64,000 nt of DNA. It comes from Rhizophagus irregularis. Lineage: Eukaryota; Glomeromycota; Glomeromycetes; Glomerales; Glomeraceae. Location of the stretch: the NCBI RefSeq assembly GCF_026210795.1, contig NC_089441.1:1674001-1738000 (forward strand). Direction: 5' to 3'. Under the pieces are notes generated by a model. It saw nothing but the letters and a program-made list of their open reading frames with translations, had not been told where the DNA came from and did no database searches. The translations under genes and the position numbers were made by a program. This document shows, in pieces, positions 676-49,207 of the stretch. The stretch's first letter is position 1, and each line of letters begins with the position of its first letter.

Positions 676-683
676 AATAGGAC

Positions 684-3058
684 TAGGGTTGGTAAAATAA
701 CCGTTAGTTATGAATTTGGTTAGTTAACGGTTAATTAACCCATAAATAACCTGTATATATAATTTTAAGGAAGTTAAAATAAATTTATAATTTATTAAAT
801 ATTATAAAATTTTAATATATTTTATTTATTCTTCATCATCTAAATTAATAACATTTGCTTCAAATCCAAATATACTATCATTATCAGAACTATTATTATT
901 ATCATCTTCTTTATTTTCATTATCAGAACTATTATTACTATCTTCTTCATTTTCATTAAAATTACTAATCTGTTTCTTTTTTTGTATTTTTACAAGTCTA
1001 TTACACATTCGAAGATTTCCATAAATATAAACTAATTTTTTAACACGTTCATTTTTCAATCTATTTCGAATTTTATTATGAATAAAACCAAAAGTAGAAA
1101 AATTTCTTTCTGCAGCTGCAGAAGATGTAGGAATTGAGAGAATTTTAATAGCCAGTTGTTGAAGTTTACTAGTTGGCCATGATTGCCACCATAAAGATGA
1201 ATTAAGAATATTAGCAGATTTCCAAATAATTTCATTATCATAAGGTGAATTTTTATTACGAAAATTTACCAATTCAGCAAATAATTCTACTGCTTCTTCC
1301 TGATTAAATCTTTTATTTACAAATGTTGTAAATTCTACATAACCAATAGATTCAACTTCATCATTTTTACTTTTTTCCAAAAATTGTGGATCTAACATAT
1401 AAGCTGTTATCATAATAGGATGATAAGTATATTCCCATCGCTTTGCAATAAGTTCTTGAAGTTTATCAGAAAAATTACAATCTATTTGATTAATTTGATT
1501 CATTACTTCTTTGAAATATGAATAAACATTTGAAAGAATTGAAATATCTGATTCAAATAACTTTAATGCTGAAACCATTGGTTCCATAATTTTTGTTATT
1601 ATATCTAAATCTTCCCAAAACTCATCTGATAAAATATGAGCTCTTAAAGTTAAATCCATATTTTGACGAATTCTTATATCCATTAAAGCCTGTTCAAGTG
1701 CTGTTCTTGAATTTTGAAGTGATTGAAAACAAGCAAGATGTGTTCCCCATCTTGTAAGTGCTGGTAAAACCAATGCAATTTCTTTAGAATAATTTTCTTT
1801 TTGAATATGTTTCAATTTAGCTGTTGCCTGTACATGTGCCTTAAAATAATTGACCAACTTTTTTGCATTTTCAACAACAGATTTAATTTGATCAATCTTT
1901 AAAATATCACTAATTAAAAGATTCATTACATGAGAATTACATCCTAAACAAACAATACTTGGATAACTATCTTCAATAATTCGCCAAGCTGCTTTCATTA
2001 CACTAGCTGTATCTGTAATAACTGCTGAAAATTTATTAATACCAACAATTTCCATTTGTTTAATAATTTCATCTGCAACCCATTTAGCTGTATGAGATTC
2101 TTCACCAGAATAAATAGCATCAAAGAATAATGGTTTTGGAGTACAAATAACAAAATTTTGAACTGATTCTCGATTAATATTAGACCAACCATCTGAAACC
2201 ATTGTAAGAGATTTAGCTTGTAAAATTTGTTCATTACATTCAGCTTTAACTTCATCAAAAACATCATCAAGTAATTCATCAGCAAGTTTTCTTCGATTAG
2301 GTAATTTGAATGCTGGACGTAATTGTTGAAAAAACTGAATAACATAATTATTTTCAAGAAAAGAAAAAGGAACTCCAGCAGCAAATAATGCTTGAGCTAG
2401 TAAAATTTCAAGAGTATCTTGTTCTTCTTCACTCATACGATCAACAAAATTCTCAATTGTTGTATTTTTTAAATGCTTTTTTGATGTTTTTACTGTAGGA
2501 ATAAAAGTAGAAGTAGTAGCATCAGAAGTTTCTAATAGTTCAGGAATTTGTTGTTTCTTTGTTTTTGCACTTTCTGGAGCTCTAGGACAACTATCATTAA
2601 GATGAACTTGCATTCTTTTAGCTGTACCTTGTTCAAAAACTTTAGAACAATAATTACAACGTACAGAAGGATGTGTTTTTTTCTTAGACCTACTACCTTC
2701 TTCATTACTTTCTGCTTCAGTAATTATTGTCCAATGTTTCCAAACAGTTCCCTTTTTTTTTACCATGATAATGAACAATAAATTTGCAAAAAAAAAGTGT
2801 TTTTTTAAAAAAAATTTATCTTAAAAAAAAGATCATGCAATATGTAGATCATAGATTTAATCAATATTTATATTAATTAATATTTAATTGTGTAACAAAA
2901 TAATGGATTATCATTTAATCACATGATTTAAATTCTGCATTTTGATTGGCTAATTATAAATAACGGTTAATTAACCATTTTAAATCAATCATAACTAACA
3001 AAATTAACGGTTAATTAACCATGGTTAATTAACCGTGGTTAATTAACCCCCATCCCTA
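684..3058 (-). mobile_element. hAT transposon, apparently complete, in the satellite
   Basis: The element begins TAGGGTTGG at 684 and ends CCATCCCTA at 3058, giving imperfect terminal inverted repeats of the form TAGGGWTGG. It is flanked by a perfect 8 bp target-site duplication, aataggac, at 676-683 and 3059-3066; 8 bp is the size expected for hAT. Both subterminal regions hold repeated ggttaattaacc motifs (715-740 and 2965-3045), plausible transposase-binding sites. The single gene inside is uninterrupted. The clean duplication inside a satellite monomer indicates a fairly recent insertion. Confidence 0.95.
826..2778 (-). CDS. hAT-family transposase with BED zinc finger
   Basis: Predicted 650-residue DDE transposase that would cut and paste the surrounding element. 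The N-terminus (about residues 35-70) has a BED-type zinc finger pattern, CNYCSKVF followed by H and C ligands. The catalytic core shows SDGWSN (first Asp), VITDTAS (second Asp) and the RW motif TRWGTHL. The C-terminus holds the hAT dimerisation block with PTSSAAAERNFS, which contains the usual catalytic Glu. The frame is open from ATG to stop with no introns, and the length is normal for hAT. The second Met, four residues downstream (MVKKK), is an equally good start. An acidic Asn/Asp/Glu-rich tail follows the dimerisation block. The family call is firm; activity is inferred from intactness. Confidence 0.95.
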   Translation of the reverse strand: MFIIMVKKKGTVWKHWTIITEAESNEEGSRSKKKTHPSVRCNYCSKVFEQGTAKRMQVHLNDSCPRAPESAKTKKQQIPELLETSDATTSTFIPTVKTSKKHLKNTTIENFVDRMSEEEQDTLEILLAQALFAAGVPFSFLENNYVIQFFQQLRPAFKLPNRRKLADELLDDVFDEVKAECNEQILQAKSLTMVSDGWSNINRESVQNFVICTPKPLFFDAIYSGEESHTAKWVADEIIKQMEIVGINKFSAVITDTASVMKAAWRIIEDSYPSIVCLGCNSHVMNLLISDILKIDQIKSVVENAKKLVNYFKAHVQATAKLKHIQKENYSKEIALVLPALTRWGTHLACFQSLQNSRTALEQALMDIRIRQNMDLTLRAHILSDEFWEDLDIITKIMEPMVSALKLFESDISILSNVYSYFKEVMNQINQIDCNFSDKLQELIAKRWEYTYHPIMITAYMLDPQFLEKSKNDEVESIGYVEFTTFVNKRFNQEEAVELFAELVNFRNKNSPYDNEIIWKSANILNSSLWWQSWPTSKLQQLAIKILSIPTSSAAAERNFSTFGFIHNKIRNRLKNERVKKLVYIYGNLRMCNRLVKIQKKKQISNFNENEEDSNNSSDNENKEDDNNNSSDNDSIFGFEANVINLDDEE

Positions 3059-3745
3059 AATAGGACGCTAACGATTTTCTTAATTTTAATTAATTGATTT
3101 GATTTTTTAAATTATGATTTATAGTTGATTTGTCAATTGAGAATTCAACGCAATAGGACGCTAACGATTTTCTTATTAATTAATTTATTTGATTTTTTAA
3201 TTATGATTTATAGTTGATTTTCCAATTGAGAATTCAACGCAATAGGACGCTAACGATTTTCTTAATTTTAATTAATTGATTTGATTTTTTAAATTATGAT
3301 TTATAGTTGATTTGTCAATTGAGAATTCAACGCAATAGGACGCTAACGATTTTCTTATTAATTAATTTATTTGATTTTTTAATTATGATTTATAGTTGAT
3401 TTTTCAATCGAGAAATCAACGCAGTAGGACGCTAACGATTTTCGTAATTTTAATTTATTTGTCTTTTTTAATTATGATTTATAGTTGATTTTCCTCGAGA
3501 AATCAACGCAGTAGAACGCTAACGATTTTCTTATTAATTAATTGATTTGTCTTTTTTAATTATGATTTATAGTTGATTTTCCAATCGAGAAATCAACGCA
3601 ATAGGACGCTAACGATTTTCTTATTAATTAATTTATTTGATTTTTTAATTATGATTTATAGTTGATTTTTCAATCGAGAAATCAACGCAGTAGAACGCTA
3701 ACGATTTTCTTATTAATTAATTGATGATTTTTAAATTTATAAATA
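3059..3745. repeat. Satellite array, ~90 bp unit, right block
   Basis: Continuation of the array from 1-675, with the same gatttatagttgattt marker and gacgctaacgattttc phrase, about eight copies. The first bases, aataggac, are the right-hand target duplication of the hAT insertion. The array stops a few bases before the start codon of the gene at 3753, so it probably covers that gene's proximal promoter. Confidence 0.95.
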
Positions 3746-3752
3746 GGACGAT

Positions 3753-6209
3753 ATGACGATATTGAACCCGCTTCGATTTTTTAAACAAATATTGAGTGAA
3801 AATAAAATGTCAAATAATAGCAATAATAAAAAAAACAATAAAAAAAATAACAAACAAAAGCAACAGAGGTTTCAAAAAGAAACACCTGACGAAGGATCTA
3901 ATCGTCAACGGGGAAGAACGGAAGAAGAAAGTAATCTGAATGAGACGAGTGACAAGACCAATAAGTCGACTAGCAAATCGTCACCCACCAAGTCAAACAA
4001 ACAAAAGCAGCAAAGGTTTCAAGAAGAAACACCTGACGAAGGATCTAATCGTCAACGGGGAAGAACGGAAGAAGAAAGTAATCCGAATGAGACGAGTGAC
4101 AAAACCAATAAGTCGACTAGCAAATCGTCACCCACCAAGTCAAACAAACAAAAGCAGCAAAGGTTTCAAGAAGAAACACCGAGCGAAGGATCTAATCGTC
4201 AACGGGGAAGAGCGGAAGAAGAAAGTAATCCGAATGAGACGAGTGACAAAACCAATAAGTCGACTAGCAAATCGTCACTCACCAAGTCAAACAAACAAAA
4301 GCAGCAAAGGTTTCAAGAAGAAACACCGAGCGAAGGATCTAATCGTCAACGGGGAAGAGCGGAAGAAGAAAGTGATCCGAATGAGACGAGTGACAAAACC
4401 AATAAGTCGACTAGCAAATCGTCACCCATCAAGTCGATCCTCAAATCTGCAAAGTCGACTAAGCCGACTCAAGAAGAGTCTGACGATGAGGTTATAGAAA
4501 TTGAACCGCCAAATATTCCTAAAGGTAATTGAATTTTGGAAAATTGCTGATTGACATGTACGATAATTAATAATTTTTATAGATCAACAAGAGATGTTAT
4601 CGGAAATGAAAAAACGATATGGGAATATTCGAATTCCACAAAAATTCGTATTAGTGGTTAAAGACGATCAAGGTAATGAAAGGATGATCGATGATGACGA
4701 TACTGATTTAAAAGCAGGTACGATTTTGACTTCATTCGTATAAATTCAGAATTATTCGTAAAAAAATATTACTATTAATAAAATTCTTTATTTAGAAAAT
4801 CTAAAATTAAAGAAACAAATTGAAGAAGTACAAGTAGAGAATGCAAAGCTTCAACGCGAAAATAACTGATTATTCGACGAAAATCGTTTTTTGACTCGAA
4901 TAAACGAGGCCTTTGCAGACGAGAATGACGATCTACGCGAAAGCTTAAACAGGTATTCGAGAATCCGTCTGCCTAAAGCCATTCATAGGCAGACGGATCT
5001 CGAACAGCTGGCAAAACGTCAAAAAAGAATTAAGACAAAAAAGTCCGAGCGATACGAGGAAGAATCGGAGGAAGAACGGTCTGGTTCTAACAATAATGAT
5101 GAGTACGACGAAAAAGAAGCTAGGGTATATTAATTTTATTTGTCTGATTCAGTTATTTAAAATTGCAGTATTGAGTAATTAAGTACCGGTTATCATTATT
5201 TGATTGTTATATTTAGGCTGAAATGAAGTCTATTTTGAAAACCATCGATGAAACTCGAGGACTAGATTACAATGAAACGTTCAATAGCGCGAAAAATCTC
5301 AAGATTCGTCGTAAGCTAGTCCCTGAATTGCGTTCAGCCCTTGCTCCGTGTTTTCCCGCTTCGAATAAGCAACTTACAAAATGGTTGGATTGTCTCCACA
5401 AGTCTCGTCGTTCTCATCAAAGATTAATGGATAGGGGAAAAGCCGATGAAAATAAACACCGGGTGCACTCAAACAATCGAGTACACGACGTTAGTAATGA
5501 TTTATAATTATTATGCTGAATTTTATTCAGATTATATATTGAATTTTATTCAAATTATAACGTATTTTAGAAGAAAATCCGCCGAATTAAGGCGGCAAAG
5601 AGATTATATAGTTTTGACGATGAACGGATAACAAAATATGATAAGCGTAGATTACTAAAGATGTTATCCAATCGCTTATTTCATTCTCCAGAAATAAGCG
5701 AGACGGACGAAGAAGACCCAACAAAGTCCATAATCGCTATTTACGACTATTCGTGGAGATCTGATGAGGTTATTAGAACTTCTGAATCTTGATTTTTCAG
5801 ACGAATCGCTGGATTTAATTTTTATATTTTATTGTTTCTTCAGCTTAAAAATTTGCTACGAAATGTACTCGATGTACACTCGTCAAATAAGTCGAAATTA
5901 ATACGCGAACGTAGATACGACGACGAGGTACAAAAATACGACCGACCACATCCGTCGAATGCTCCCGAATGGTCTTATATCGTACAACAACAAGATTTAA
6001 TATTCGATACTGATATCGATCAGGGTTTAATCACTGAATATGATGAAGAAAAAGAAGAAGTTAGTAGAGGGACAACACCAGCAACTGGCAACACCACCGA
6101 AAATGATGAAGACCATAACAAGGAAGGAGAAGAAAATCCATCAAAATCAACGGTCGGCGACAATCATAATAATTCAGATTCTGATTTACATATGGACGAC
6201 GCGCAATGA
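3753..6209 (+). pseudogene. Six-exon repeat-containing fungal gene with in-frame stop
   Basis: Unrecognised lineage-specific protein. Exons with consistent GT..AG borders and phases are 3753-4524, 4583-4717, 4796-5124, 5217-5480, 5571-5768 and 5844-6209. Exon 1 is Lys/Gln/Ser-rich and carries four 49-residue repeats. Exons 2-3 turn into a coiled-coil-like stretch (ENLKLKKQIEEVQ). Exons 4-5 are basic, and exon 6 ends acidic. A TGA at 4867-4869 in exon 3 interrupts a frame that clearly continues, with the same coiled-coil style, on both sides. The gene is therefore either a pseudogene or makes a short N-terminal product. The start may be 3753 or the later Met at about 3808 (MSNNSNN). No localisation or function can be assigned. 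Confidence 0.7.
3849..4436 (+). repeat. Four 147 bp (49-codon) coding repeats
   Basis: Units begin at 3849, 3996, 4143 and 4290. Each encodes NKQKQQRFQ, then an acidic/Arg stretch with GSNRQRGR, then TSDKTNKSTSKSS. Units 2-4 differ by only a few codons (for example PDEG versus PSEG), so the expansion is recent or kept homogenised. The 147 bp length preserves the frame. The last unit changes into KSILKSAKS before the acidic exon end. Confidence 0.95.
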
Positions 6210-6354
6210 ACGAATCTGAATTAATTTGGTAGAAAACTTTCTTTTTTTCGTCAAAAATCTATATATATATGTAATTAATATTCCAAATTATTAGTATTAG
6301 AATTTTCCATAATTCAAAATAAATTTGTCTTAATTCAGAAAAAAATTAATTACA

Positions 6355-6925
6355 ATTCGAAATAAATTTACTGCAAATTTACCGCAATTCAGAATAAAAT
6401 TTACTGCAAATATACCATAATTCAGAATAAAATTTACTGCAATTCAGACGCAATTCAGAATAAAATTAACCGCAATTCAGAATAAAATTTACCGCAATTC
6501 AGAATAAATTTACCGCAATTCAGAATAAAATTTACCGCAATTCAGAATAGAAAATTTACTGCAATTCAGAATAGAAAATTTACTGCAATTCAGATTAAAT
6601 TTACTGCAATTCAGATTAAAATTTACTGCAATTCAGAATAAAATTTACCGCAATTCAGAATAGAAAATTTACCGCAATTCAGAATAGAAAATTTACTGTA
6701 ATTCAGATTAAAATTTACTGCAATTCAGAATAAAATTTACCGCAATTCAGAATAAATTTACCGCAATTCAGAATAGAAAATTTACCGCAATTCAGAATAA
6801 AATTTACCGCAATTCAGAATAGAAAATTTACTGCAATTCAGATTAAAATTTACTGCAATTCAGATTAAAATTTATCGCAATTTATCAAAATTTATCATAA
6901 TTCAGAATAAATTCACTGCAATTCG
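6355..6925. repeat. Minisatellite of ~20-27 bp units
   Basis: More than twenty degenerate copies of a unit reading tttaccgcaattcagaataa, with variants tttactgcaattcagatta and an extended form containing gaaaa. It follows the 3' end of the six-exon gene and reaches to within about 200 bases of the Polinton-like element. Bases 6210-6354 are AT-rich and already hold decayed copies. Bases 6926-7123 hold a non-coding stretch rich in cggcc/gccga motifs that abuts the element's left breakpoint. Confidence 0.9.
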
Positions 6926-7123: not shown

Positions 7124-7714
7124 AGTGTAATGGCCTTCTGACAGGATGAGAGTCGCACGTCTATCGGACTTACTCTTAGAGATTCAGGTAATGTCCCCCA
7201 CGATATTAATTGCGAGACTTCCTGCGAGTTGTTCAACTTTGTCCATGCATGAAACTGGGATGGGAGCATCGCGATTGAGACCTAATGCCTTTTTGATATA
7301 CTCGGGCTTTTCGATTGACTTTGGCATTTTAGAGAATGTGCCGTAGATATATTTCAGGCATTCATACAGGCAATCATTTAGCTACCCGTTGCAACCCCCT
7401 GCAACCGGTGGGGCATCTCTCACATAAATTATGAATCGTTCAAAATAATCAGGGTCTGCGTCATCCGGTAGTTGTGCTTCGTCGTAGTGGTCCAAGAGTG
7501 AGAAGAGGCTGGTTGGTTGGTTTTCTGATGTCCATCCACCGGGTTTCCAGTTTTCATAGGGAAGTAGGATCTGGAACTTTCTATCTGGAAATCGCGCCTG
7601 GAGAGTCTGACCGAGTCTGGTGATAGCTCCTCTGGAAAAGCGGGCACCAGAATATTGAAGTTCCTTGATGTCAGGTCGTGTTGGTAAAGTGCGGGCGATT
7701 CTTGAGTATTGCAT
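7124..7714 (-). pseudogene. Family B DNA polymerase, N-terminal fragment
   Basis: The frame starts at 7714 (MQYSRIAR), meets TAG at 7382-7384, continues in the same frame with LNDCLYECLKYIYG, meets TGA at 7184-7186, continues with ISKSKSDRRATLILSEGHYT, and ends abruptly near 7124 where unrelated repeat DNA begins. I take it as the N-terminal region of the element's polymerase: it lies 85 bp behind the helicase gene in the same direction, and the remaining polymerase (10838-11971) lacks this part. The Cys in NDCL and the His in GHY are arranged somewhat as in OTU-like cysteine proteases; that is only a resemblance. Two stops plus the truncation make it dead. Confidence 0.65.
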
Positions 7715-7799
7715 TTTTATGTATATGATTTGTCTTCAAATATAAATAATAACTTTCTATATATACGAAAAAAAAAAAAGAAATAATCTCAAATAGCGC

Positions 7800-10373
7800 T
7801 TACAATATGTCGTTGATAGCGCCCTCAGTATTTTCTTCGTTCCAGTCATCGATGATTCCATTGGCGGCCTCCCATTCACGTTCCATATTGGTTTTTGGAC
7901 GTTCCTCAGGGATCTCTCGCGCTTTTCCCTTATCTGCCCTCATAGTTTCATACCTAGAGGGGGTGGGAATAATCTCGGCATTACGATTCTCCTTGTATGC
8001 TCTTATTAAATCCGCGAGTTCTTTACGGCTAGGTATTTTAGGTAAGTATCCATTATATTCGATCCAGTCCTTGAAGCGGTCTACTACTTCCTTAAGGTAA
8101 TACTGGTACTCGTCCTCAATACGCGTTGTGGGACATTCCTCTATTTCAAACGCGAGTATTTCCCAGTCATATTCGTCTGACGTGTCTTGGTACTTAGCCC
8201 ATAATTCCTTACCTGTATTGTAGAGATCATTGAAGACCTGGTCCTTTGAATTTTTAACCCACGGTTTGCGATCCCATCGGTGCCTTTCATGCCAAGCCCA
8301 GTGTGCTCGAGTGCCTTCCTTTGGTTCAGGATCCCGGTCGACTTCTGGTTCTGTGTCGGGTTCTGGGATAAGCTGCTCTTCGGGAGCCGGTACTACTACA
8401 GGTTCTGTAGAAAATTTAGAATCTGCGAAGGATTCGGATTTTGTGGAAGATTCTGCGGGAGACTCAGGTTGTTGTTCAAGAACTGGGTCCACGGTTGTAG
8501 AATCCGAGTCTGATAACAAGTCGTCTAAAACATCGTAGTCATCTGGCTCAGGGGTGGGTTCTTCTTGGTCAGGTTCCTCGTCAGATAGATAACAATCTGA
8601 GAAGCTATCTATAGGTTCATCGGTGTTTAACTCACTAGTGTTTACATCGGGATCCGGTTGTTCTTCCCTTAACCCTTGTGGACGTTCTTTTAAGTGGTCA
8701 GGCTTGGGTGGAAGCGGTGGAGGAGTCTTGCAAATTACAGGTGCGGGTTTTTCTTCAGCGGGTTCGGGTTTTTCCTCTGCGGGTTCGGGTTTTTTCTCAG
8801 CGGGTTTTTCCTCTGCAGGTTCGGGTTTTTTCTCAGCGGGTTTCTCTTGTACGTCTTGTGGATTGTTGGCTGGATTATATATATTTGCCAAGAACTTCTC
8901 CAAGGCTTTGGGGTCTGATGCGGGTTTTTTAGAAGTCTCTATATCGATTCCTTCTATGTCTATCTCATCTGTTTCGTGGATCCAGTTTTTGCCGAAGAAC
9001 TTTTTGTAGAGGTCCTCCCTGGATATGCTGTAAACCCGTGGTGTTTTTCCACCCTTGCGTACTACTTTGCTATTTATACCCAACTCATTTGATAGGATTC
9101 TAGAAGCGTTTATCTTTGATAGGGGTGAAATGCAATGAGTTTCGCAATATGAAGTATATACCCTATAAAATTCTTGAACAGGTAGGTCGGTCATATAATT
9201 TTTCATTACGAGGTATGTGTCCTTTATAAATTGGAATAGGGGTGGAAGAGTCGAGATGATATGTTCCTGTTTAGATGTTGTCATGGGTGGCGGATTCCCA
9301 TTGAAGTCTGGGTAAGAATCCGCGATGGCTCTCAAGTAAGCATAGAACGCCTCACTGGCGCCTGGGTATTTCATAGCGTCACCGAGTTTCTTGAAATATT
9401 CCAGGTCTCCCTTGCGGGATGGTGACACATCTAAGAATACTGTGCGCCTATCATCGTTCTCTACTCTGAGAGCATTTTCGTTAGTAAGGACAATAGTTGA
9501 CATAAAGTTCTTGTAATGTGTTGGCGTCTTATATTTTTTGTGGATTTCCATTATATCACTCGTTACTTTATCTTTCAAAGAGCGATACAGAGAATTCCAC
9601 TGGCTTTTTTCTGTGGGCATTTCCTCAAGAAGAAGAAGAACTTTACCCTGTAATTGCCCATTGAAACTTCCAAGAATCGTCTGAGGATCGCTGGTCTTAT
9701 AAACGAGTTGAGTGCCTAGGACGCTGCGCTGAATGAAATCTGTTATAATACCTTTGCCCCAACCCTGTCCAGATTTTAGGTAGAGAATCGAGTACATCTT
9801 CCTTCCAGCTGCCACACCGGCTAACCACTTGATGATATATTCAGTGAGATTCCAATCACCCAAACACCAGATTTCCTGAATGTGAGAGAAGATAAATTTA
9901 ACTGCGAGGTGAATTGTAGACTCAAAGGTGGATATCGGACGCAAGACGTGGAGAAATCCTGGGAAGATATTTAGATAGAGTTGGCCGGTTAAGGATCTGA
10001 AGATTCGCTGTTTATGGGGATCACAGGTTGCATTACATACATCGGTATTCTCGACCATAAACCACTTGTAGATGTTGAACTCGGTCTTTTGAGAGGGTCC
10101 TTGTTCAGGTTGTGTGTAGAATGCCTTCGTGATTGGACGGATAAGCTTACCAATATTTTTGTCAATAATGTGTTTCAAACTTTTACTATCCGGGTCCCAC
10201 CAGAAAACCCCATGAGGATCTGCACAGGGAATGAAATAACTGCAAAGATACTTCTTGGCTTGATCGAGATCACTCATACTTTTAGCAGCATTAATGAGTC
10301 GTTTAAGCTCATTGATACTGAAGGCTTTCTTTTGTTCACCGAACTTGGGGATAACTTGAGCTTGAGCGGCCAT
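7800..10373 (-). CDS. D5-like superfamily 3 helicase of the element
   Basis: 857-residue replication helicase, expected to unwind the element's double-stranded DNA. Walker A is SGQGWGKG at 201-208, the Walker B strand is VLLLLEE near 245-251, the SF3 sensor (motif C) is VLTNEN at 295-300, and an arginine-finger-like DDRRTVFLDV follows. This is the DUF5906/D5 pattern of NCLDV and Polinton-like helicases. I see no clear archaeo-eukaryotic primase domain N-terminal to it. From about residue 500 there is a Pro/Glu/Lys repeat tract (EPAEEKPAEKKP) and a long acidic linker, then a conserved-looking C-terminal domain of about 150 residues. The frame is intact. The upstream side (10374-10420) leads directly into the terminal block, so this was the first gene of the element before the inferred inversion. 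Confidence 0.9.
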   Translation of the reverse strand: MAAQAQVIPKFGEQKKAFSINELKRLINAAKSMSDLDQAKKYLCSYFIPCADPHGVFWWDPDSKSLKHIIDKNIGKLIRPITKAFYTQPEQGPSQKTEFNIYKWFMVENTDVCNATCDPHKQRIFRSLTGQLYLNIFPGFLHVLRPISTFESTIHLAVKFIFSHIQEIWCLGDWNLTEYIIKWLAGVAAGRKMYSILYLKSGQGWGKGIITDFIQRSVLGTQLVYKTSDPQTILGSFNGQLQGKVLLLLEEMPTEKSQWNSLYRSLKDKVTSDIMEIHKKYKTPTHYKNFMSTIVLTNENALRVENDDRRTVFLDVSPSRKGDLEYFKKLGDAMKYPGASEAFYAYLRAIADSYPDFNGNPPPMTTSKQEHIISTLPPLFQFIKDTYLVMKNYMTDLPVQEFYRVYTSYCETHCISPLSKINASRILSNELGINSKVVRKGGKTPRVYSISREDLYKKFFGKNWIHETDEIDIEGIDIETSKKPASDPKALEKFLANIYNPANNPQDVQEKPAEKKPEPAEEKPAEKKPEPAEEKPEPAEEKPAPVICKTPPPLPPKPDHLKERPQGLREEQPDPDVNTSELNTDEPIDSFSDCYLSDEEPDQEEPTPEPDDYDVLDDLLSDSDSTTVDPVLEQQPESPAESSTKSESFADSKFSTEPVVVPAPEEQLIPEPDTEPEVDRDPEPKEGTRAHWAWHERHRWDRKPWVKNSKDQVFNDLYNTGKELWAKYQDTSDEYDWEILAFEIEECPTTRIEDEYQYYLKEVVDRFKDWIEYNGYLPKIPSRKELADLIRAYKENRNAEIIPTPSRYETMRADKGKAREIPEERPKTNMEREWEAANGIIDDWNEENTEGAINDIL

Positions 10374-10419
10374 TTTTTGTTCTATTAAATCGAGTACTAA
10401 TTTATAGTTACCTAATCTT

Positions 10420-10600
10420 CAATTGCCGAATGTATTTTTTCCAAAGATCCGCGCTCCTACCCGGTTATCCTCCTGTGGTTTTACAGACCTTCTAAGGGCT
10501 ATTAACCTACCTGTTAACTTGGTTTGCTATCTCACTGCCTCCAATAAGAAAACGAACGGAATCCTGAATCGGTTTCAGATGTTTCAGAAGTTTCGGATCT
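10420..10600 (+). repeat. Terminal-block copy 1 (displaced left end)
   Basis: Shares an order of motifs with 20225-20430 in the same orientation: cagaccttctaagggct, then ttggtttgctatctcactgc, then cggaatcctga, then a cagatgtt-type stretch. One copy lies just outside the helicase gene and the other just outside the zinc-ribbon gene, as expected for the two ends of an element. Polinton ends should be inverted. Direct orientation is what an inversion of the left arm would produce. Confidence 0.7.
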
Positions 10601-10885
10601 GGGGGGGTAAAATCAAAACTTTTTCTGGGAGGGTTGTCCTCGCCTGACTTTTACCAAAATTGCCAAAACATCTGAAACATCGAAACGCCCTCTCTGATTC
10701 TCTCTTATTTTCCTCTCTTTTCCCTTATTTTATCCTTTTTTGCTTATATTGTTATGTTTCAGATCTTGTTTCATATTGTTTCAGATATATAGGGATTCTC
10801 CGCCCCACGGAGGGGGGATGTAGGTACTGCGAGGCCTGTGAGGCCGAGGTGGGGTGAGCGTAGCGAGGCACACTACCAGCACGAC
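10600..10885 (+). repeat. Dispersed ~300 bp repeat, copy 1
   Basis: Aligns along its length with 35276-35585. Both start gggggtaaaa..aaaactttttctgg, run through tgtcctc and gaaacatc, then atatagggattc/atatggggattc, and end with ggtactgcgaggcc, ccgaggtggg and cgacgac. Here it lies between the displaced terminal block and the polymerase C-terminal frame, exactly at the rearrangement junction. It may be the outer part of the element's terminal repeat or an independent solo repeat that was the recombination substrate. Confidence 0.8.
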
Positions 10886-11971
10886 GACATATATGAAACA
10901 CTTGAGGAAACATACCAGAGGATCCATGAAGAGCGGGATTCCTTCCTACAGGCTACAAAGAAGTTCGGTCTAGGAATCGACTTATTTTACCACAACTGGT
11001 CATACAAGAGAACTGCACTCTGGCTTTTTGAATGGTTTAGTGTAGGGGTTCCAGCCAATGATCCTCTTAACCCAGTCGAAGCAGAGTGGATAAGTGATGC
11101 AATGATGGGAGGTCTTATCTGGGCAGACAATGAATGGAAGGGTTATGGAAGGCAATACGACGTGACAAGTTTATATCCAAGTATTCAGCAATCAAATGCA
11201 AACTTTCCAATCCGACAAGGTAAGTTTCAAATACTTAAAGACTTTGTAGACCATAGAGGTTATGCCTTGTATGGATTATTTCGTGCTAGCTCCCAGGGAG
11301 CGCCCAAGGGCAAGGTAAGTGGTAATGATATTCTCTTCCGACAGAATAAGAGGGGAGTCTATACATTCATTGACTTACAACGAGCAAAGAAACTTGGACT
11401 CGATATACAGTTAATCCAGGATGGAAAGCCAAATGCCTTGATATATGACAGAGAAGCAAGAATTCCTGGGACTGTAATATTTGGTGAGTATGTCCACTTT
11501 CTCTTCAATATAAAGAACCAGGGTGGCGTGGCCGGTCGTGTTGCAAAGAGAGTTCTCAATACACTATGGGGAGCACTCTGCCAGAGGAAACGCAATTACA
11601 AGACACTCACCACAGATCAAACAGATCCATTCAAGTTTCCAGAAGGCCACACACTTGACTCCATCATACCAGTAGGATCTGACCAGTGGCGATTCCAGTT
11701 CACAAACCCAGGTAGTCCCTTCAAGGGTGAGTATCCTAGGATCGCTCCATTCTTATTAGCATATGGACGGAAGACGACTTCAGAGTTATTAGAACCATAT
11801 AAGGATAAAGCACGACGCATCCATACAGATGGATTTATTCTAGAGGAACAGCCGAGTAGTCCTACACTTATCACTTGTCCAGAAAATGCATCCAAAGCAT
11901 TGAAAGCTCTCAAGTTTGAAACCGCAGGATACTGCCATGTGAAAAATGCAAACAAGGTTATCTGGACATGA
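10838..11971 (+). pseudogene. Family B DNA polymerase, palm/C-terminal fragment
   Basis: Polymerase domain of a Polinton-type PolB. Motif A is YDVTSLYPS (about 107-115), motif B is KRVLNTLWG (about 237-245) and motif C is RRIHTDGF (about 327-333). Motif C has HTD where most family B enzymes have DTD, and motif B has LWG instead of LYG; either this is a divergent lineage or a catalytic Asp is missing. No exonuclease motifs are seen. The frame opens with a GTG inside the dispersed repeat, and protein similarity appears to start only around HDDIYETLEE, near 10885. The C-terminus looks natural (NANKVIWT). The N-terminal part lies inverted at 7124-7714, so this copy cannot make a whole enzyme. Confidence 0.85.
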
Positions 11972-13333: not shown

Positions 13334-13912
13334 ATGTCTTACCCTTATATAGCTAACCCTATAACTGGACGTCCAATTATTATCGGTGGAGATACCTTTA
13401 ATCGAATAGTTATGGAATCCCATGATTATATTGATAGAAGGCTTGTCCGTAGACAAACTGCACCTTCACCTGAAGAGCAACCTGTATATTTAAATACAGA
13501 TACAGGACGTTATGTTCGACGTGGTACTAGAACATATCATAGACTGATTGAGAGTGACTATGAGGTAGTTGAGGATTACTACCTTGTCCATTATGAAGAA
13601 GAGGCGCTTATAGAGGAAATCATCAATGAAACACGCTATAATGAGGAAAATCTTGATGGGCAGCGGTTAACTTTCAATGATATACAACAAATCAGGACTG
13701 CTATTCAGGCTGACCAAGATGAATATGATGATTTTATCTTACAGCAGGATATGACTGATATGACAACTATCGGTCCTTCCGGTCATCCACGTACTTTGGA
13801 GGACCATACCCCGAGACTTGCAGAGCTTAATATTGAGTTGTGTAGGGAATGTCTCATGCCTGTAAGCCCAAGTGACTTAACGGACAAGTTGTGTAAGGAC
13901 TGCTCTGAATAG
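13334..13912 (+). CDS. NPxTGR (2-cysteine adaptor-like) zinc-binding protein
   Basis: 192 residues. The N-terminus has two related motifs: NPITGRPIIIGGDTFNRI at about 8-25 and NTDTGRYVRRGTRTYHRL at about 53-70. These match the NPxTGRxIxxGGxxFxxL signature of the viral 2-cysteine adaptor domain known from iridoviruses and other large DNA viruses, though the two cysteines themselves are not obvious. The C-terminus is a CREC...CKDC zinc-ribbon-like pair of CxxC motifs. The middle is acidic. In viruses such motifs occur in fusion proteins of unclear role. This gene supports a viral ancestry for the element. The motif match is by eye. Confidence 0.65.
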   Translation: MSYPYIANPITGRPIIIGGDTFNRIVMESHDYIDRRLVRRQTAPSPEEQPVYLNTDTGRYVRRGTRTYHRLIESDYEVVEDYYLVHYEEEALIEEIINETRYNEENLDGQRLTFNDIQQIRTAIQADQDEYDDFILQQDMTDMTTIGPSGHPRTLEDHTPRLAELNIELCRECLMPVSPSDLTDKLCKDCSE

Positions 13913-15756: not shown

Positions 15757-16554
15757 ATGTCGACATCAACACCAATTCCAGTTTATACTCCTTCAGAACC
15801 TACTGGACCGCCTCCTGCACACTTAGTCAATGAAAAAGACGATGATGAATTAGTTAGAATACTTAAGGCTCATGCAAATTTATTGACTACCAGGGGTCGT
15901 TTAACTGTTGATTCAGAGATACAGGAGGCAAATAATCAAATCAAACATATTATTAATATATTAATGTATCGCTGTAAAGCAAAACATGAAGAACTTGGTA
16001 TTACAAAAGATTTGTTAGTTTTTGCACAAGGTAAGATAAATGCATTTGATGAAACGTTTACTAATTTAGAACGTCAATTAGTTATTATACGTGCTGCCAA
16101 TGATAATTTCATAGAAGAAAACCATAACCTGCAAAGAGATTATGATACTATGGTAGAGCTTCGTCGACGGGCTATAGGTGAACGTAATCAGGCACGACAT
16201 GAACGTAATGTATTACAAGCAGATTATACTCAAGCAGTAAGGGATCGTAATGAGGCTCAAAATGCTGTAAATCGTGGTAATATCCTTTTAAATCATTGGC
16301 GGCTGAGGGCTACTCAGACTGGAGGACAACTTGTATTGGTTAATGCGCAACTTGAACAGGTTAATGCACAGCTAGCACATGCTAATAATAGGGTGCGTTT
16401 TGGGATTCAGACATTAGGGAGACTTAGGAATAGACTTTTCCAACAGATAGCTGCTCTTAGAATTCAGGTACAATGGTTTCGAATTAGACAATTGAACCCT
16501 CCTCCACCTCTTTTAAACAATCCACTAGAGACGATATGGCTACCACTGCGATAG
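15757..16554 (+). CDS. Coiled-coil element protein, 265 aa
   Basis: The N-terminus is Pro/Thr-rich, followed by a long charged coiled coil from about residue 70 to 215 (EENHNLQRDYDTMVELRRR; LVNAQLEQVNAQLAHANNR), ending in a short basic and proline segment. No enzyme motif is seen. Its 3' end overlaps the gag start (16536) in another frame by 19 nt, so the two are probably expressed from linked messages. Being immediately upstream of gag, it could be a scaffold or minor virion protein; that is inference from position. Confidence 0.75.
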   Translation: MSTSTPIPVYTPSEPTGPPPAHLVNEKDDDELVRILKAHANLLTTRGRLTVDSEIQEANNQIKHIINILMYRCKAKHEELGITKDLLVFAQGKINAFDETFTNLERQLVIIRAANDNFIEENHNLQRDYDTMVELRRRAIGERNQARHERNVLQADYTQAVRDRNEAQNAVNRGNILLNHWRLRATQTGGQLVLVNAQLEQVNAQLAHANNRVRFGIQTLGRLRNRLFQQIAALRIQVQWFRIRQLNPPPPLLNNPLETIWLPLR

Positions 16555-17966
16555 GATTGCCGATTTTTGAGGGTAAAGCTACTGATGATATTGATACATT
16601 TGTTAGGCTTTATATGGGTTATCTTGATACTATTAATCTTAACCCATACGCTGCTGGAGGGCCACCAGAGTCTTGGAAAAGAGCTATGGGTATACTTAGA
16701 AGCTGCATGGCTGGTGAAGCGGCTGAATGGTTTGATCGAGAAATTACAGGAAAAAATTGGGAACTTTCTGGTATCACTTCAAGAGGTGGAGCTAATTTAG
16801 CTGCTTTTCTAGCATTAGTAATACCAGAAGGTGCAGGAGGACCAAATGCAGGTACCTATGTAAATGGGTCTGAAGCACATGTTTATGCTACAGATGGAGC
16901 TAATGCATTAGTAACTATTAGAGCAGCATTTATTCCTACCCATGATTTAATAGGTGGAGATAAATCTTGGGGAAGAGCTGGTGCTCGTCCGACAGATAGA
17001 GCTGCTCCAGCTACTGCAGATGCTGGTGTTGCTGCTAATAATAATCGTTCTATAGTTTTTCCAGGTATTAAACCTAACCAGGCGCTTTATTGGCTTAGAA
17101 CACAATTTCCAACTATTTTAGATGAAAAGAAACGTATCCGTTTTAACAGTCTTTATCAGGAAAATGAGCCAGTCGATGCATTTTATAGAACTGTAAAGAG
17201 AGCTGGAAAATTACTAAAACTAACTGATGATCTTATTATTGACCAGTTCTTCAGAGGTCTTTCGGCTGATAATATTTTTGAAGCAGAAAGGTTTAGTAAT
17301 CTTAATCCTGATGACTTGGTTAAACATCTGAGAAATTTAGAACGGAAAAGGGCTGAAATGCGCTTGGGGTTACAAGATAGAAATCGACGACTTCAAGCAG
17401 ATTACAGTGATGTAACTCAACCTCCGTTAGGAAAACAGGAACCTGTCGTACTGACATCAAAGTCATCTGGGGTTACTCAAGAACAATTACAAGAGTTACT
17501 TAAGGCTCAAGCTGAGGAACTTACCAAGAATTTTCAGGTGCAATTTAAACAATTACAGGCTCGGCCAGTTCGTAATCCACCAGTTTATAGACAGCAGATT
17601 AAACCTGTTCGACCAAAACCACAGAGACGTGTTGTTCAGGATCCTCAGGATCCTGATTGGGATGATGGTTATATAGATCATGATGTTGGTGATGACCCTG
17701 ATGCTCCTGAGTGGACTTTGGATGATCATCAAAATGCTATTGATCTTATTATGGGATATAAACGTGGGACGTCTAAAATACTTACAAAACAACTTCAGAA
17801 GGCTAAAGATAGACGTGATGATCTGGATTTGGCCCGAGCAATGAGAAACCTCGATCTTAATGATGATGCTATGGACATTGATACTGCGAGTTTTGGTGAA
17901 AAGGTAGAATTGAGAGAAAAAGATGGTGATGTCTATATGGTTCGTGTTGGGTCAAAAAAAAAGTAG
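16536..17966 (+). CDS. gag: Ty3/gypsy-type Gag capsid protein within the element
   Basis: 476 residues. The retrotransposon Gag pattern is clear: an N-terminal FEGKATDDIDTFVRLYMGYL, a later LRSCMAGEAAEWFDREI, and the C-terminal capsid region FNSLYQENEPVDAFYRTVK followed by IIDQFFRGLSADN. A Gly/Ala-rich segment of about 100 residues separates the two halves. There is no CCHC zinc knuckle; the tail is Gln/Pro/Arg-rich, then acidic. No reverse transcriptase or RNase H is found nearby, and the start overlaps the previous element gene, so this is not a nested retrotransposon. Gag proteins assemble capsids; here it may replace the jelly-roll capsid of other Polintons. The stop codon follows an A9 run, and the protease frame continues in -1. 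Confidence 0.82.
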   Translation: MATTAIGLPIFEGKATDDIDTFVRLYMGYLDTINLNPYAAGGPPESWKRAMGILRSCMAGEAAEWFDREITGKNWELSGITSRGGANLAAFLALVIPEGAGGPNAGTYVNGSEAHVYATDGANALVTIRAAFIPTHDLIGGDKSWGRAGARPTDRAAPATADAGVAANNNRSIVFPGIKPNQALYWLRTQFPTILDEKKRIRFNSLYQENEPVDAFYRTVKRAGKLLKLTDDLIIDQFFRGLSADNIFEAERFSNLNPDDLVKHLRNLERKRAEMRLGLQDRNRRLQADYSDVTQPPLGKQEPVVLTSKSSGVTQEQLQELLKAQAEELTKNFQVQFKQLQARPVRNPPVYRQQIKPVRPKPQRRVVQDPQDPDWDDGYIDHDVGDDPDAPEWTLDDHQNAIDLIMGYKRGTSKILTKQLQKAKDRRDDLDLARAMRNLDLNDDAMDIDTASFGEKVELREKDGDVYMVRVGSKKK

Positions 17967-18028
17967 GTTCGAGTATCTCAAAACTTCTTAAGTCGTCCCC
18001 AAATAAGACAGCAGTTAGCTCTTCTAGT
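17952..18028 (+). promoter_or_regulatory. Gag-Pro junction: candidate -1 frameshift site or 65 nt intron
   Basis: Gag ends TCA AAA AAA AAG TAG. The nine A residues (17954-17962) followed by G allow tandem slippage back by one. The -1 frame is then open from 17963 straight into the protease frame with no stop, and the protease has no upstream ATG. Alternatively, GTAGGT at 17963 could be a splice donor and TCTTCTAG ending at 18027 an acceptor; removing these 65 nt also joins the two frames (AA+T, then GTG). Both routes give Gag plus Gag-Pro. The sequence alone does not decide between them. Confidence 0.65.
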
Positions 18029-18703
18029 GTGCCATTGAAAGGCAAAGCAACCCCTGTTAAGATTCCTGTGAAAGTTACTGGTAGTAAGTCTACACCTGCA
18101 AAAGCTGTTACTAAGAATGATTTATTAAGCCTGTTAAGGTCTGCAGACTTTAGGAAATTACTCCGTGAGATTCTTCAGGAGGAGTTATTGTCTGCTAGAA
18201 AAGTCACAGAGATTCCGGAGGACCTAGTTGAGGAGGAACAAGAAGAGGATATCAGGGTAGATGATCCTATGGATATTGACATAGCTCGTTTAGAGAATAC
18301 TAAAGATCTTTTAGCACTGGATGGGGAGGTTAATGGAATAGCAATTCAGTGTTTAGCAGACACTTGTGCTAATGCGTCTTTTATTCAGAGAGAAGCTGCT
18401 GAGGAATTAGGGTTGGATATTGACAAGAGTATTACATATAACATATCTGGTGCTTCAGGAACAGGTAGGACATTTGGCATGGTAAAGGGAGTGACAATCA
18501 AACTTACCCCTGATTATGCTATCACTGAGGACCTTGCAGTCTTAAGTGGTTACAAGCATAGGGAAATTGGGTTAAGCCGAATGTGTCTGAAACGTTACAA
18601 TTATGATGTCCATGAATCACGTGAACATATAGCCTTTACCTGTGATGGAAAGAATGTTTTTATCCCGATAGTTCCTGATGCTAATCGAGGGGATAAAAAA
18701 TAA
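17963..18703 (+). CDS. pro: Retropepsin-like aspartic protease (Pro, -1 frame of gag)
   Basis: The frame continues from the gag stop; the first in-frame candidate starts are a GTG at 18029 and an ATG only at the DDPMDID motif, so I read it as the C-terminal part of a Gag-Pro fusion. The retropepsin-like core lies at about residues 95-215 counted from 18029. The flap-preceding motif is CLADTCANASFI, with the catalytic D-T followed by Cys-Ala instead of Gly-Ala. A second half, REIGLSRMCLKRYN, matches the hydrophobic-hydrophobic-Gly element before the final strands. The expected job is cleavage of Gag or other element proteins. The DTCA variant is unusual and may lower or abolish activity. A short DDPMDID motif upstream echoes DDAMDID near the Gag C-terminus. 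Confidence 0.75.
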   Translation, partial: VGSSISKLLKSSPNKTAVSSSSVPLKGKATPVKIPVKVTGSKSTPAKAVTKNDLLSLLRSADFRKLLREILQEELLSARKVTEIPEDLVEEEQEEDIRVDDPMDIDIARLENTKDLLALDGEVNGIAIQCLADTCANASFIQREAAEELGLDIDKSITYNISGASGTGRTFGMVKGVTIKLTPDYAITEDLAVLSGYKHREIGLSRMCLKRYNYDVHESREHIAFTCDGKNVFIPIVPDANRGDKK

Positions 18704-18728: not shown

Positions 18729-19819
18729 TTATTCCCAAAATTTGCGAATTAAGTCAGGGACATCCTCCTTCAACCGGTCAGCAAGTTCCCAAGTAGCCTC
18801 AGTGTCTGGATAACGCTCCCACTTAACCAAATACTGGTCTTGACCTTTTCTAATGCGATGCCGAAGTATCTGCTCAGGAACAAATCTTTCAGGTTGTCCT
18901 CTTATCACAGAGTCAGGGGAGGCTTTTCATTAATAGGAACTACTTGCAATTCCTTTTGGGTATATGCACATCTGGATACACCTAATCGACCATGTGGTCC
19001 ATTAAGGAGATATGTAGGAGGCTGTTCGGGTAAGAGTATCATTTTTTTGATTACACGAATGTTTGGGTTCCATCTTATGTCTCCTGTACGGAATTTTCCG
19101 TGAAGTTTATTACCGAGTACTGAGATAGGTTCATCTAACTTGACTCTGACACGTGCTCCTTCAGAGAGGAGATCCGTCTTTTTTGACACTTTGGGTGATC
19201 CTGTTGGAATGTCTGGGGGATTTCTCTGCCAGAGTTCATTTACTTTACTCACTATATTATGGAAATCTTCTGACCATTCCACGGATGTCACCCCGGTTTT
19301 CAACTCCTGTGCTACCATTCGTTTAAGAAGGGGTTCTTGGATGGCTTGGATAGCTCTTTCAGCATAAGATTGCTGTTTATGCCTTCCTGGCTCTCCGAAC
19401 CTCATCATTACCCCTAGGCTGTTCAGGAAAAAATCACGTACCTGGTCGTTAGTGAATTCTGATCCGGAGTCTGTCTCCAGTCTGTGTGTTGGTGGCTTAA
19501 TACGATTTCTTCTGTAGATTTTGACAAACCCGTTTAGAACTCTATTTGCAGTCTTATCCTTTAGGGGTTCTGCATCAACTCTCTTTCCTGCAACTTCCAC
19601 CACTACGAGAAAATAGTGGAATCCTTTGGGGTCAACTGGCATCTCTGCAAGATCTGCCTGATGTGTTGCATTTGGTTTCCATACAATTACCTTTGGGCGT
19701 TCTGTTGACTTTTCCTTTAGGGGCTTTTTGTATAGGTTGTAGTGCTCTTCACCTTTTAGAATTCGTGCTGGTATTCCGGAGAGATTGTAGTATTTGTAAT
19801 AATTCTCTAAATGCGACAT
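18729..19819 (-). pseudogene. int: DDE integrase with chromodomain, one-base frameshift
   Basis: Retrovirus-like rve integrase of Polinton type. The catalytic triad is visible as HQADLAEM, ETDSGSEF and the Glu in SYAERAIQ, with 36 residues between the second Asp and the Glu. I chose the ATG at 19819 (MSHLENYY); the open frame upstream has only a TTG. No HHCC zinc domain is seen N-terminally. The core frame stops near 18905 after NEKPPLTL. One base away, another frame continues as SPDSVIRGQPERFVPEQ and encodes a clear chromodomain (YLVKWERYPDTEATWE) ending at 18729. The natural protein is therefore an integrase-chromodomain fusion, broken here by a one-nucleotide shift around the AAAAG at about 18918-18923. 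A sequencing error is possible. Confidence 0.85.
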
Positions 19820-19863
19820 ATTACGACAAATTAAAGGAATGGTTTTAGACTTCAAATCTTAAG
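19820..19863. promoter_or_regulatory. Divergent promoter region, integrase / zinc ribbon
   Basis: Only 44 bp separate the integrase ATG (19819, minus) from the zinc-ribbon ATG (19864, plus). Control elements for both must lie here or inside the neighbouring coding sequences. No TATA-like motif stands out. Confidence 0.4.
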
Positions 19864-28815: not shown

Positions 28816-29031
28816 CATTTTTTATTTTATATTTTTATTATATACATATATTTTTTATTTTATTTTTAGTTTACAATAAATTTTATAAAATATATATTTT
28901 ACTACGGTAAAACGCATCAAACTTTTTTTTTTGTGACTATCGTGTGATCAATTTATTTATTACAAATGTGAATTATTGCAAAAATTAAAACTACCGTATA
29001 TATTTTGTTTAAATATATAAATATGTATACA

Positions 29032-29559
29032 TTATCCCCTGATCGGCACCATTTACACGATTATGCAATTGTAGTTATACCTACTGGGTAGCAAAATTTA
29101 TATGTATTTATTTATCCGTTTCTAGGAAATTTTGCGGTAAAAATTAACTATTGATTATACTATAATGGACTGATTTGAAAATTTGAGTAATTCAGAAAGA
29201 TTTGCATTTCCAAATGAGAAAATCTTTCTTTTAATTTATTTGTAATCTCAATATTATTTTTCAAGTGTAATAGTAATAGTTCCGAAGCTTTTAAAATTCA
29301 ATTATTTTTTTAAAATCTTTTAAAATAAAAAAAAACCAAGCAAAAGAAAAATAAGATTCAACAATTAAATATACTATATTATACTCACGATATACTATAA
29401 AACACTTACTATTGTGTAAATGGCAGGGGATAAATCAATTATCTCCTGGCTAATTGGAATAGTAAAATTTTACTTAGAATCGGAACATGATCAGCCTTCG
29501 GCCGATCATTTATCCAATCCTAGTAAAATTTTACTTATTCCTAATTAGCCAGGAGATAA
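29032..29559 (+). mobile_element. Composite MITE, copy 1
   Basis: Four TTATCYCCTG modules in alternating orientation: TTATCCCCTG at 29032, CAGGGGATAA at 29424-29433, TTATCTCCTG at 29439-29448 and CAGGAGATAA at 29550-29559. The outer 400 bp part has matching inner ends (..CCATTTACACgat / ..CCATTTACACaat). The 120 bp right part is a near-perfect foldback whose arms carry tcctggctaatt and tagtaaaattttact around a gccttcggccgat centre. The whole composite recurs inverted at 46783-47292, so the two parts move as one unit. No coding capacity. Confidence 0.85.
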
Positions 29560-30001
29560 GTAATACGTATACGTAAAAAAAAATTTTTTTTACCGGAATC
29601 ATCTGATAAAAATAATCTCACCTCCTTAAATATTACATCATTTTCTATCGTCCTGCATATACCAATGAGCAAGTCTTCATCTATTTTCTCCAATATATGT
29701 GTGATAAGTTTCCAATTTAGTATTTTTTCCATTCCTATGATGAAAAAAAAGTTTTTCCTGAATGATCAAAAGTTTTGCGTCAATCGTAACTTCCTTTCTT
29801 CGTGTTGACGCATCAGAGCCTGTTACATATAAATATCATCCTTTTTCTTAACGAATTGTTTTCACTTTCTCTCTCTTCTCATAGGTTTATTCTCTGCTGG
29901 TAATATGTATGTCATGATTTATCTATTGTTTTCTTTGTTGCTGAAGTTACAATTACAAATACTTAATCTTCTCATTATATTTTATAAGATCTTCATCCAC
30001 T

Positions 30002-42814: not shown

Positions 42815-42933
42815 AACACAGAAACGCCTATTTCTAATTGAGGGGTTTGATCAACGTTTCACACAATTACTAATAAATTTAAGATAATGGAATTTTACTT
42901 TACTTTCCCCAAAAATTATAAAACCGTGAGAAA
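42815..42933 (+). promoter_or_regulatory. Conserved promoter block of BTB-TLDc gene 1
   Basis: Shared with 49100-49207 in front of the paralogue: aacacagaaacg, then cctatttc, then TCAACGTTTCACA (42851-42863), then actaataaatttaa and ataatgg/ataatga before the ATG. The blocks outside this stretch are not obviously alike, so this ~100 bp stands out as retained or constrained. TCAACGTTTCACA lies 83 bp before the start codon here and 60 bp before it in the paralogue. Confidence 0.6.
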
Positions 42934-49099: not shown

Positions 49100-49207
49100 A
49101 GGAACACAGAAACGGGAAATTCCTATTTCGTACAACTGAGACGTTGGTCAACGTTTCACATTACTAACTAATAAATTTAAATAATGAATACTAAAATTTG
49201 AAAGAAA
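49100..49207 (+). promoter_or_regulatory. Conserved promoter block of BTB-TLDc gene 2
   Basis: Counterpart of 42815-42933: aacacagaaacg, ttcctatttc, TCAACGTTTCACA (49148-49160), then actaataaatttaa and ataatga. Retained while surrounding DNA differs. Confidence 0.6.

Follow-up and report, generated by a model that had tools for sequence, protein, structure and literature searches.

Gag and retropepsin-like genes within a Polinton-like DNA element of Rhizophagus irregularis

Virus classification is built on capsid type: Polintons and their kin are grouped with the double jelly-roll DNA viruses, and Gag with the reverse-transcribing viruses. A 64,000-nucleotide stretch of the Rhizophagus irregularis genome, hereafter the window (positions 1674001-1738000 of contig NC_089441.1, here C13, in a 146.7-Mb genome of 32 contigs), raises the question of whether a DNA element could have taken up a capsid of the other kind. 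It contains a Polinton-like element in which a Gag and a retropepsin-like protease (Pro) are encoded among genes for a family B DNA polymerase, an SF3-type helicase, an A32-type ATPase and an integrase. The same genome was searched for further copies, which form two subfamilies, A and B, and more distant families.

The gag-pro pair as a recurrent part of the element

The original prediction, made from the sequence alone, was that Gag and a retropepsin frame are built into this array in the absence of reverse transcriptase (RT) and RNase H; Pfam searches and a fold model confirmed it. Indeed, the window open reading frames (ORFs) that were scanned gave no Pfam match to RT or RNase H, and none of the ORFs scanned matched an adenovirus-type cysteine protease, while the presumed protease of 224 amino acids (aa) was borne out as retropepsin-like (Asp_protease_2, E 8.8e-9). 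Structure prediction, used to look for a jelly-roll or other non-Gag fold in the 476-aa protein, gave a Gag capsid (CA) instead: all 50 PDB rows listed in the structure search were Gag CA proteins, and Arc, PEG10 and PNMA2 are among the structural neighbours. The Gag of the distant family C behaved likewise. Its model, built from 34 sequences (P0160 first), has a predicted local distance difference test score (pLDDT) of 81-94 across residues 51-240; HIV CA chains filled all 50 Foldseek rows shown (E 0.07-0.33), and all 50 rows shown by VIA were Gag CA (PEG10 10.8, Ty1 9.5, Copia 9.5, Arc, MLV, HIV). A two-domain helical CA fold is predicted for both families. In profile comparisons, family-A Gag reached 2.8e-4 against a Ty3 polyprotein from this genome (50 columns, probability 40.8; unrelated control 0.27), family-C Gag did not match that polyprotein, and family A against family C was not significant (0.056).

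In the host genome, 91 matches to the window Gag were obtained, 89 of 335 candidates having been scored. Subfamily A accounts for 56 of these matches (72-100% identity) and subfamily B for 35 (49-62%); predicted proteins of R. irregularis DAOM 197198 share 98% identity with the window Gag. Matches to the ATPase, protease and integrase number 107, 155 (not all of them listed) and 129, respectively. Neighbourhoods were counted after merging pieces into loci, with 106 of the 129 integrase rows. Intact copies devoid of gag-pro, as a one-off insertion would leave, were looked for, and 99 of 102 A/B-type ATPase loci turned out to keep Gag or Pro within 9 kb (Gag at 83, Pro at 98), the other three being C18:3866488, C24:2538690 and C25:3087731. 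Conversely, the 88 merged Gag loci have Pro at 87, the ATPase at 82 and a listed integrase at 80. Sixteen ATPase loci have Pro and no listed Gag; the single one of these that was readable (L012) encodes an unscored B-type Gag. An RT_RNaseH_2 match lies within 6 kb of none of the 89 A/B Gag entries, compared with 73 of 150 Retrotrans_gag loci and 1.3% of random positions; since the RT list comprises the best 150 of 264 candidates, this zero means none among the scored matches.

A 15-kb B copy at C13:658.2-673.2 kb (L021-L023) shows the whole arrangement. Between terminal inverted repeats (TIRs) of about 490 bp and 99% identity, it encodes in order a 171-aa ORF, a zinc-ribbon protein, a chromodomain integrase (363 aa, Chromo E 8.7e-18), Pro, Gag (498 aa), a coiled coil and the ATPase, followed by ORFs of 186 and 192 aa, an F-box protein, ORFs of 156 and 173 aa, a 617-aa polymerase and an 821-aa helicase. 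All five copies examined terminate in inverted repeats, not direct ones (about 460-590 bp, 93-99.6% identity; the window copy retains one), and all five show a 5-bp target duplication beside termini reading 5'-GTCGTCGG or a one-base variant: ATCCT on C4, ACAGC on C3 (ambiguous, the site lying within a CAG repeat), CCGCT on C24 and GAGGA on C6 by script, and ATTAA on C13 by eye from printed flanks. The A and B integrases carry the D, D, E triad. DNA_pol_B_2 (PF03175), the model for protein-primed polymerases of organelles and viruses, passes the cut-off in the window (E 4.6e-8) and falls just under it in the C13 copy (7.5e-6).

The element shares with Polintons/Mavericks the family B polymerase, rve integrase, A32-type ATPase, TIRs, a length of about 15 kb and a high copy number in a eukaryote genome. 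It differs from them by Gag in place of the double jelly-roll capsid, a retropepsin in place of the adenovirus-type cysteine protease, the SF3-type helicase, and a target duplication of 5 bp rather than 6 bp. With Ty3/gypsy elements it has in common the Gag CA fold, retropepsin, gag-pro order and chromodomain integrase; unlike them, it has no RT/RNase H, no long terminal repeats were seen, its integrase is on the opposite strand, and it possesses its own polymerase, helicase, packaging ATPase and TIRs. According to the accessible part of PMC7805220, no major capsid protein (MCP) was found for Polintons of Glomus intraradices (R. irregularis). Those elements, of the same species and matched by description only, are very likely the same as ours or close kin; in our element, the place of the morphogenesis genes is occupied by a Gag CA. 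In the portion of PMC4028283 available, nine MCP-less Polintons also lack ATPase and protease, which was read as concerted loss. Because the ATPase is retained in our element and its protease belongs to a different class, capsid replacement fits better than capsid loss. Excerpts of PMC11071296 mention a handful of adintovirus helical proteins remotely similar to retroviral capsids. Adintoviruses thus also combine a polinton-like genome with a retroviral-capsid-like protein, but they are defined by a Hexon-type major capsid, and those excerpts describe no gag-pro module. Titles and beginnings of abstracts, searched in a range that left out most subscription journals, gave no description of a Gag capsid in a Polinton-like element; the main texts of two R. 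irregularis papers (PMC11075540, PMC10640383) contain no word beginning with "gag".

The gag-pro junction, selection and distant families

In families A, B and C and at locus L095, pro occupies the -1 frame with respect to gag, which ends in an A-run. The frame, the A-run and the short overlap (37 nt in the window, 49 in the B copy, 43 in family C; gag stops TAG, TAA, TGA) resemble retroviral gag-pro frameshift cassettes (A AAA AAC/G), although the window copy has no recognisable downstream RNA structure and is located in a DNA element. Sixty further A/B junctions (38 A, 22 B) were read among the 91 Gag matches. Their A-runs, whose lengths may include homopolymer errors of assembly, are A9 in 45, A8 in 11 and A7 in two, with a single A10 and a single A11; a G and then TAG or TAA invariably come next. 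At L095, A AAA AAC stands ten nt before the gag stop, and pro has an open -1 frame of 235 codons. The gag-end ORF of L094 has no slippery site; gag is broken there and the sequence examined ends beside it. The -1 frame and the A-run amount to retroviral gag-pro wiring, with a frameshift as the putative event. In the two A7 copies (C4:5174750 and C8:3623879), gag and pro are fused in a single 737-codon frame. A second candidate frameshift site, at the overlap of the coiled-coil and gag frames, was rejected as not conserved: TTTAAAC occurs in A (window 16512-16518, 43 nt short of the end of the coiled-coil frame, gag lying in -1 to that frame) and is missing from the B copy read.

Between A and B, the ratio of non-synonymous to synonymous substitution rates (dN/dS) is lowest, at 0.08-0.20, for the integrase, ORF 186, ATPase, protease, helicase and ORF 156. 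Intermediate values were obtained for ORF 192 (0.22-0.26) and the F-box protein (0.36), and the highest for Gag (0.40-0.41) and the coiled coil (0.48). The dN values of the latter two are 0.33-0.38, against 0.05-0.09 for the other genes. Since Gag and the coiled coil both evolve fast and form a single protein in family C, there is a hint that they work together.

Family C (L027-L030) was reached through weak protease matches (27-31% identity). It encodes an ATPase, an rve-like integrase, an 803-aa coiled-coil-Gag protein, a protease, a transmembrane coiled coil and a polymerase. L027 and L028 align collinearly for over 7 kb at 88%; L029 also matches, its ATPase lying just beyond the stretch examined, and L030 holds the Gag-Pro part only. 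The integrase reaches only E 0.047 with Pfam rve, and a script did not find its E residue at the expected spacing. Relatives of family-C Gag (74 hits) occur in R. clarus, R. diaphanus, Glomus cerebriforme, Gigaspora, Diversispora, Entrophospora, Paraglomus and Ambispora, as matches that do not by themselves establish a DNA-element or retrotransposon setting; among 34 aligned relatives, zf-CCHC is matched in six and Asp_protease_2 in five (E up to 0.1). The polymerase at L027/L032 (C8:3487000-3503999) is of the PF00136 type with an exonuclease domain, in place of the DNA_pol_B_2 type; the part of PMC5294986 available presents R. irregularis as known for asfarvirus-like polymerases.

In a search with the family-C ATPase, 150 of 275 candidates were scored; they include the A/B loci, six loci of family C and some 48 more at 33-49% identity, the last group picked by hand. 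The loci opened were L094 and L095, chosen by ATPase, and L093, chosen also by a nearby weak protease match. All three encode an integrase, a coiled coil and Gag, and L093 and L095 a protease. Their relation to the window Gag is visible in sequence: by tblastn within the sequences of this analysis, L093 shows 31% identity (E 4e-26) and L095 28% (E 1e-20), and by phmmer in a set of 20 proteins L095 Gag reaches 2.3e-22. Near its end, L095 Gag carries a CX2CX4HX4C zinc knuckle (Pfam zf-CCHC E 0.0073, below cut-off). At L093 (C14:2692500-2702499, 4509-6602, plus strand), a C-type coiled coil is joined to an A-type Gag CA, a domain swap between families; in the same set of 20, phmmer gives 1.2e-146 for the coiled coil and 8.2e-30 for the CA.

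Family-E Gag lies within 15 kb of a C-to-E-type ATPase in 20 of 29 rows (18 of 27 merged loci), the figure for random positions being 1.0%. The initial family-E list had 31 rows, not one of them near a scored RT. A separate group of 31 loci (for instance C7:3056990, C15:685760 and C29:3005529) encodes Gag proteins mostly 32-45% identical to family-E Gag, in frames of up to 1081 aa, with no scored RT within 6 kb and no Polinton-type ATPase within 15 kb; these are possibly the donor retroelement or Gag-only derivatives. In the comparison with RT positions this group counted 32 entries, one of them shared with the family-E list. Across the families, the integrase position and polymerase type vary, but the ATPase, coiled coil, Gag and Pro remain associated, which is the behaviour expected of a morphogenesis module. 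Use of the same module with two polymerase types may mean that it is stable and exchangeable rather than an accident.

Proposed working and competing explanations

Collectively, these data suggest that a DNA virus-like element exchanged its own capsid for a retroviral one. The module swap put forward originally is well supported, as the tests for gag-less copies, a non-Gag fold and a double jelly-roll came out in its favour, and we consider it probable that retroelement gag-pro has taken the place of the morphogenesis genes in what is a self-synthesising, Polinton-like DNA element. From the gene content, the polymerase and SF3-type helicase would copy the element as linear dsDNA. Gag, together with the coiled-coil protein encoded upstream, may assemble the particle. 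A minor Gag-Pro product could arise at the A-run, either by -1 ribosomal frameshifting or by slippage during transcription, bringing into the particle the retropepsin that would mature it. The A32-type ATPase would load dsDNA, as in Polintons and giant viruses, so that a Gag shell would package the element, and the chromodomain DDE integrase would insert the TIR-ended DNA, leaving the 5-bp duplication observed. In such a scheme, Gag would take over from the double jelly-roll capsid and the retropepsin from the adenovirus-type cysteine protease. For the wider proposition, that arbuscular mycorrhizal fungi harbour integrating dsDNA viruses or virus-like transposons of an old and diverse lineage, with a Gag virion, retropepsin maturation and a stable, exchangeable capsid module, we see the chances as about even. 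If the capsid exchange is right, major capsid types would be exchangeable between DNA and reverse-transcribing viruses, and Gag would be the missing capsid of the Glomus/Rhizophagus Polintons, a question left open in PMC7805220. The claim is testable with one protein and one fungus growing in root culture.

Several observations weigh against this interpretation. The element is known here from genes and predicted folds. For the folds, the best Foldseek E values (0.016 for A, 0.072 for C) stay above 0.001, the family-A model has an overall pLDDT of 60.7, and the window Gag sequence (family A) contains no CCHC zinc knuckle, a feature that is not universal among Gags. Retropepsins carry a D[ST]G active site, whereas the protease motif reads DTCA in A and B, DSCA in C, DPGA at L093 and DPGS at L095; protease activity is uncertain because of this departure. 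Some relatives read DTGA or DSGA, and the catalytic triad has drifted repeatedly around the retained Asp. At the junction, A9 is missing from 15 of the 60 copies, and L093 has an A9-G run but its -1 frame closes after 47 codons, so that the protease is not reached in that copy. In the window copy, no stable RNA structure was found 3' of the slippery run (z +0.85, +1.23), which makes transcriptional slippage equally possible. Finally, a dN/dS of 0.40 places Gag under weaker constraint than most other genes.

As to the origin of the pair, a single Ty3-type element could have inserted into a Polinton copy and decayed to gag-pro, and Ty3 is indeed abundant in this genome (150 scored Retrotrans_gag matches). 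Such a one-off event is rejected, as dozens of copies carry the pair in an identical position and it recurs in both subfamilies as well as in distant families; gag-pro is moreover under purifying selection with no scored RT nearby, and this origin appears vanishingly improbable. The direction may also have been the reverse, a gag-pro-int retroelement losing RT-RNase H and gaining polymerase, helicase and ATPase, with the same working and another ancestry. The co-occurrence of gag, pro and a chromodomain integrase, as in Ty3 elements, speaks for it, as does a fungal Gypsy-like integrase lineage clustering with Polintons in the available portion of PMC2836005. On the other hand, that portion describes Polinton integrases as lacking the N-terminal finger, and a motif check of our integrase revealed neither GPY/F nor, within the first 150 residues, an H2C2 finger. 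The integrase also lies on the opposite strand and, in family C, adjoins the ATPase and not Pro, so that we regard the reverse direction as improbable.

Another explanation dispenses with the virion: Gag and Pro would be genes of a pure transposon, Gag coating or moving DNA or RNA in the cell in an Arc-like or nucleoprotein role, and the ATPase serving some non-packaging task. Precedents for non-viral Gags, namely Arc, PEG10 and PNMA2, are structural neighbours of the model, no envelope or receptor-binding gene was recognised in the element, and among IMG/VR viral contigs nine Gag and two ATPase pattern matches gave no confirmed relative. However, a packaging-type ATPase and a protease are retained with Gag across distant families, and the -1 frame with its A-run is how particle-forming Gag systems load protease; in retroviruses, gag-pro frameshifting is established as the route of protease into particles. 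We find the transposon without a virion unlikely. A further possibility would be a jelly-roll capsid supplied by the element or by a helper, such as an integrated asfarvirus-like giant virus, with Gag-Pro as an accessory. An asfarvirus-related region of 1.5 Mb has been reported in R. irregularis (cited in PMC12455990, as far as its accessible text goes), and the small ORFs may hold single jelly-rolls. Yet the unassigned ORFs, in the window and in the C13 copy, are all of 265 aa or less. This length excludes a double jelly-roll, so that of the jelly-roll raised originally as a possible find among the small genes, only a small single one is still compatible with them. Pfam PF21738 and PF04451 gave no match in the host genome, a weak argument as control genomes were equally silent, and the text of PMC7805220 available reports no MCP in these Polintons. 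A jelly-roll capsid seems to us very improbable.

Organization of the window

The window copy, in which Gag and Pro were recognised, is damaged (Table 1). Two partial copies lie head to head, with the polymerase truncated (a 377-aa frame, compared with 617 aa in the C13 copy) and the integrase frameshifted; the Gag and Pro frames are both open. Positions 7124-10889 are an inverted left end of subfamily B, which includes the helicase, in inverted orientation relative to the intact copies, and whose TIR terminus adjoins subfamily-A sequence at 10890. On the simplest reading, one element end inserted in the polymerase region of another copy and the remainder was lost later. The GC content is 38-44% at 8-20 kb, 35-37% at 4-8 kb and 22-32% elsewhere.

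Table 1. Element features in the window (window coordinates)
Feature	Position	Strand	Basis
SF3-type helicase (DUF5906), 857 aa	7800..10373	-	Pfam DUF5906 E 4.7e-17; blastn order vs other copies
Terminal inverted repeat, single end	10402..10889	.	matches both ends of other copies; termini and target duplications
Family B DNA polymerase, C-terminal part, 377-aa frame	10838..11971	+	DNA_pol_B_2 E 4.6e-8
Small ORF, 156 aa	12085..12555	+	conserved A vs B, dN/dS 0.17
F-box-like protein, 138 aa	12649..13065	+	F-box E 0.0086, below cut-off
Small ORF, 192 aa, 2-cysteine-adaptor-like	13334..13912	+	2C_adapt E 7.7e-4, below cut-off
Small ORF, 186 aa	13958..14518	+	dN/dS 0.08 A vs B; weak Pfam match Gag_p24_C E 0.067
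A32-type (FtsK/HerA-like) putative DNA-packaging ATPase, 407 aa	14502..15725	-	Pox_A32 E 3e-8; dN/dS 0.10
Coiled-coil protein, 265 aa	15757..16554	+	fused to Gag in family C; rate co-varies with Gag
Gag, predicted two-domain CA fold, 476 aa, without zinc knuckle	16536..17966	+	fold model; sequence link to L095 zinc-knuckle Gag
gag-pro overlap, 37 nt, slippery A AAA AAA AAG directly 5' of gag stop	17930..17966	+	pro open in -1 frame
Retropepsin-like protease, 224 aa, motif DTCA	18029..18703	+	Asp_protease_2 E 8.8e-9
rve (DDE) integrase, 316-aa frame	18905..19855	-	rve E 4e-9; frame change removed chromodomain
Small zinc-ribbon-like protein (DUF5679), 106 aa	19864..20184	+	DUF5679 E 1.7e-15

The F-box-like protein could act on the turnover of host proteins. 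To the left of the element, tandem repeat arrays of 89-93 bp flank a 650-aa minus-strand ORF (826-2778) in window positions 1-3740, and 3753-4532 hold a 259-aa ORF made of 147-bp direct repeats with 94-97% identity. The right part of the window contains other mobile elements, marked by inverted repeats at 29031-29577 and 46765-47293 (17-18 kb apart, 91-96%) and by direct repeats at 42929-43922 and 49203-50203 (about 6.3 kb apart, 83-90%).

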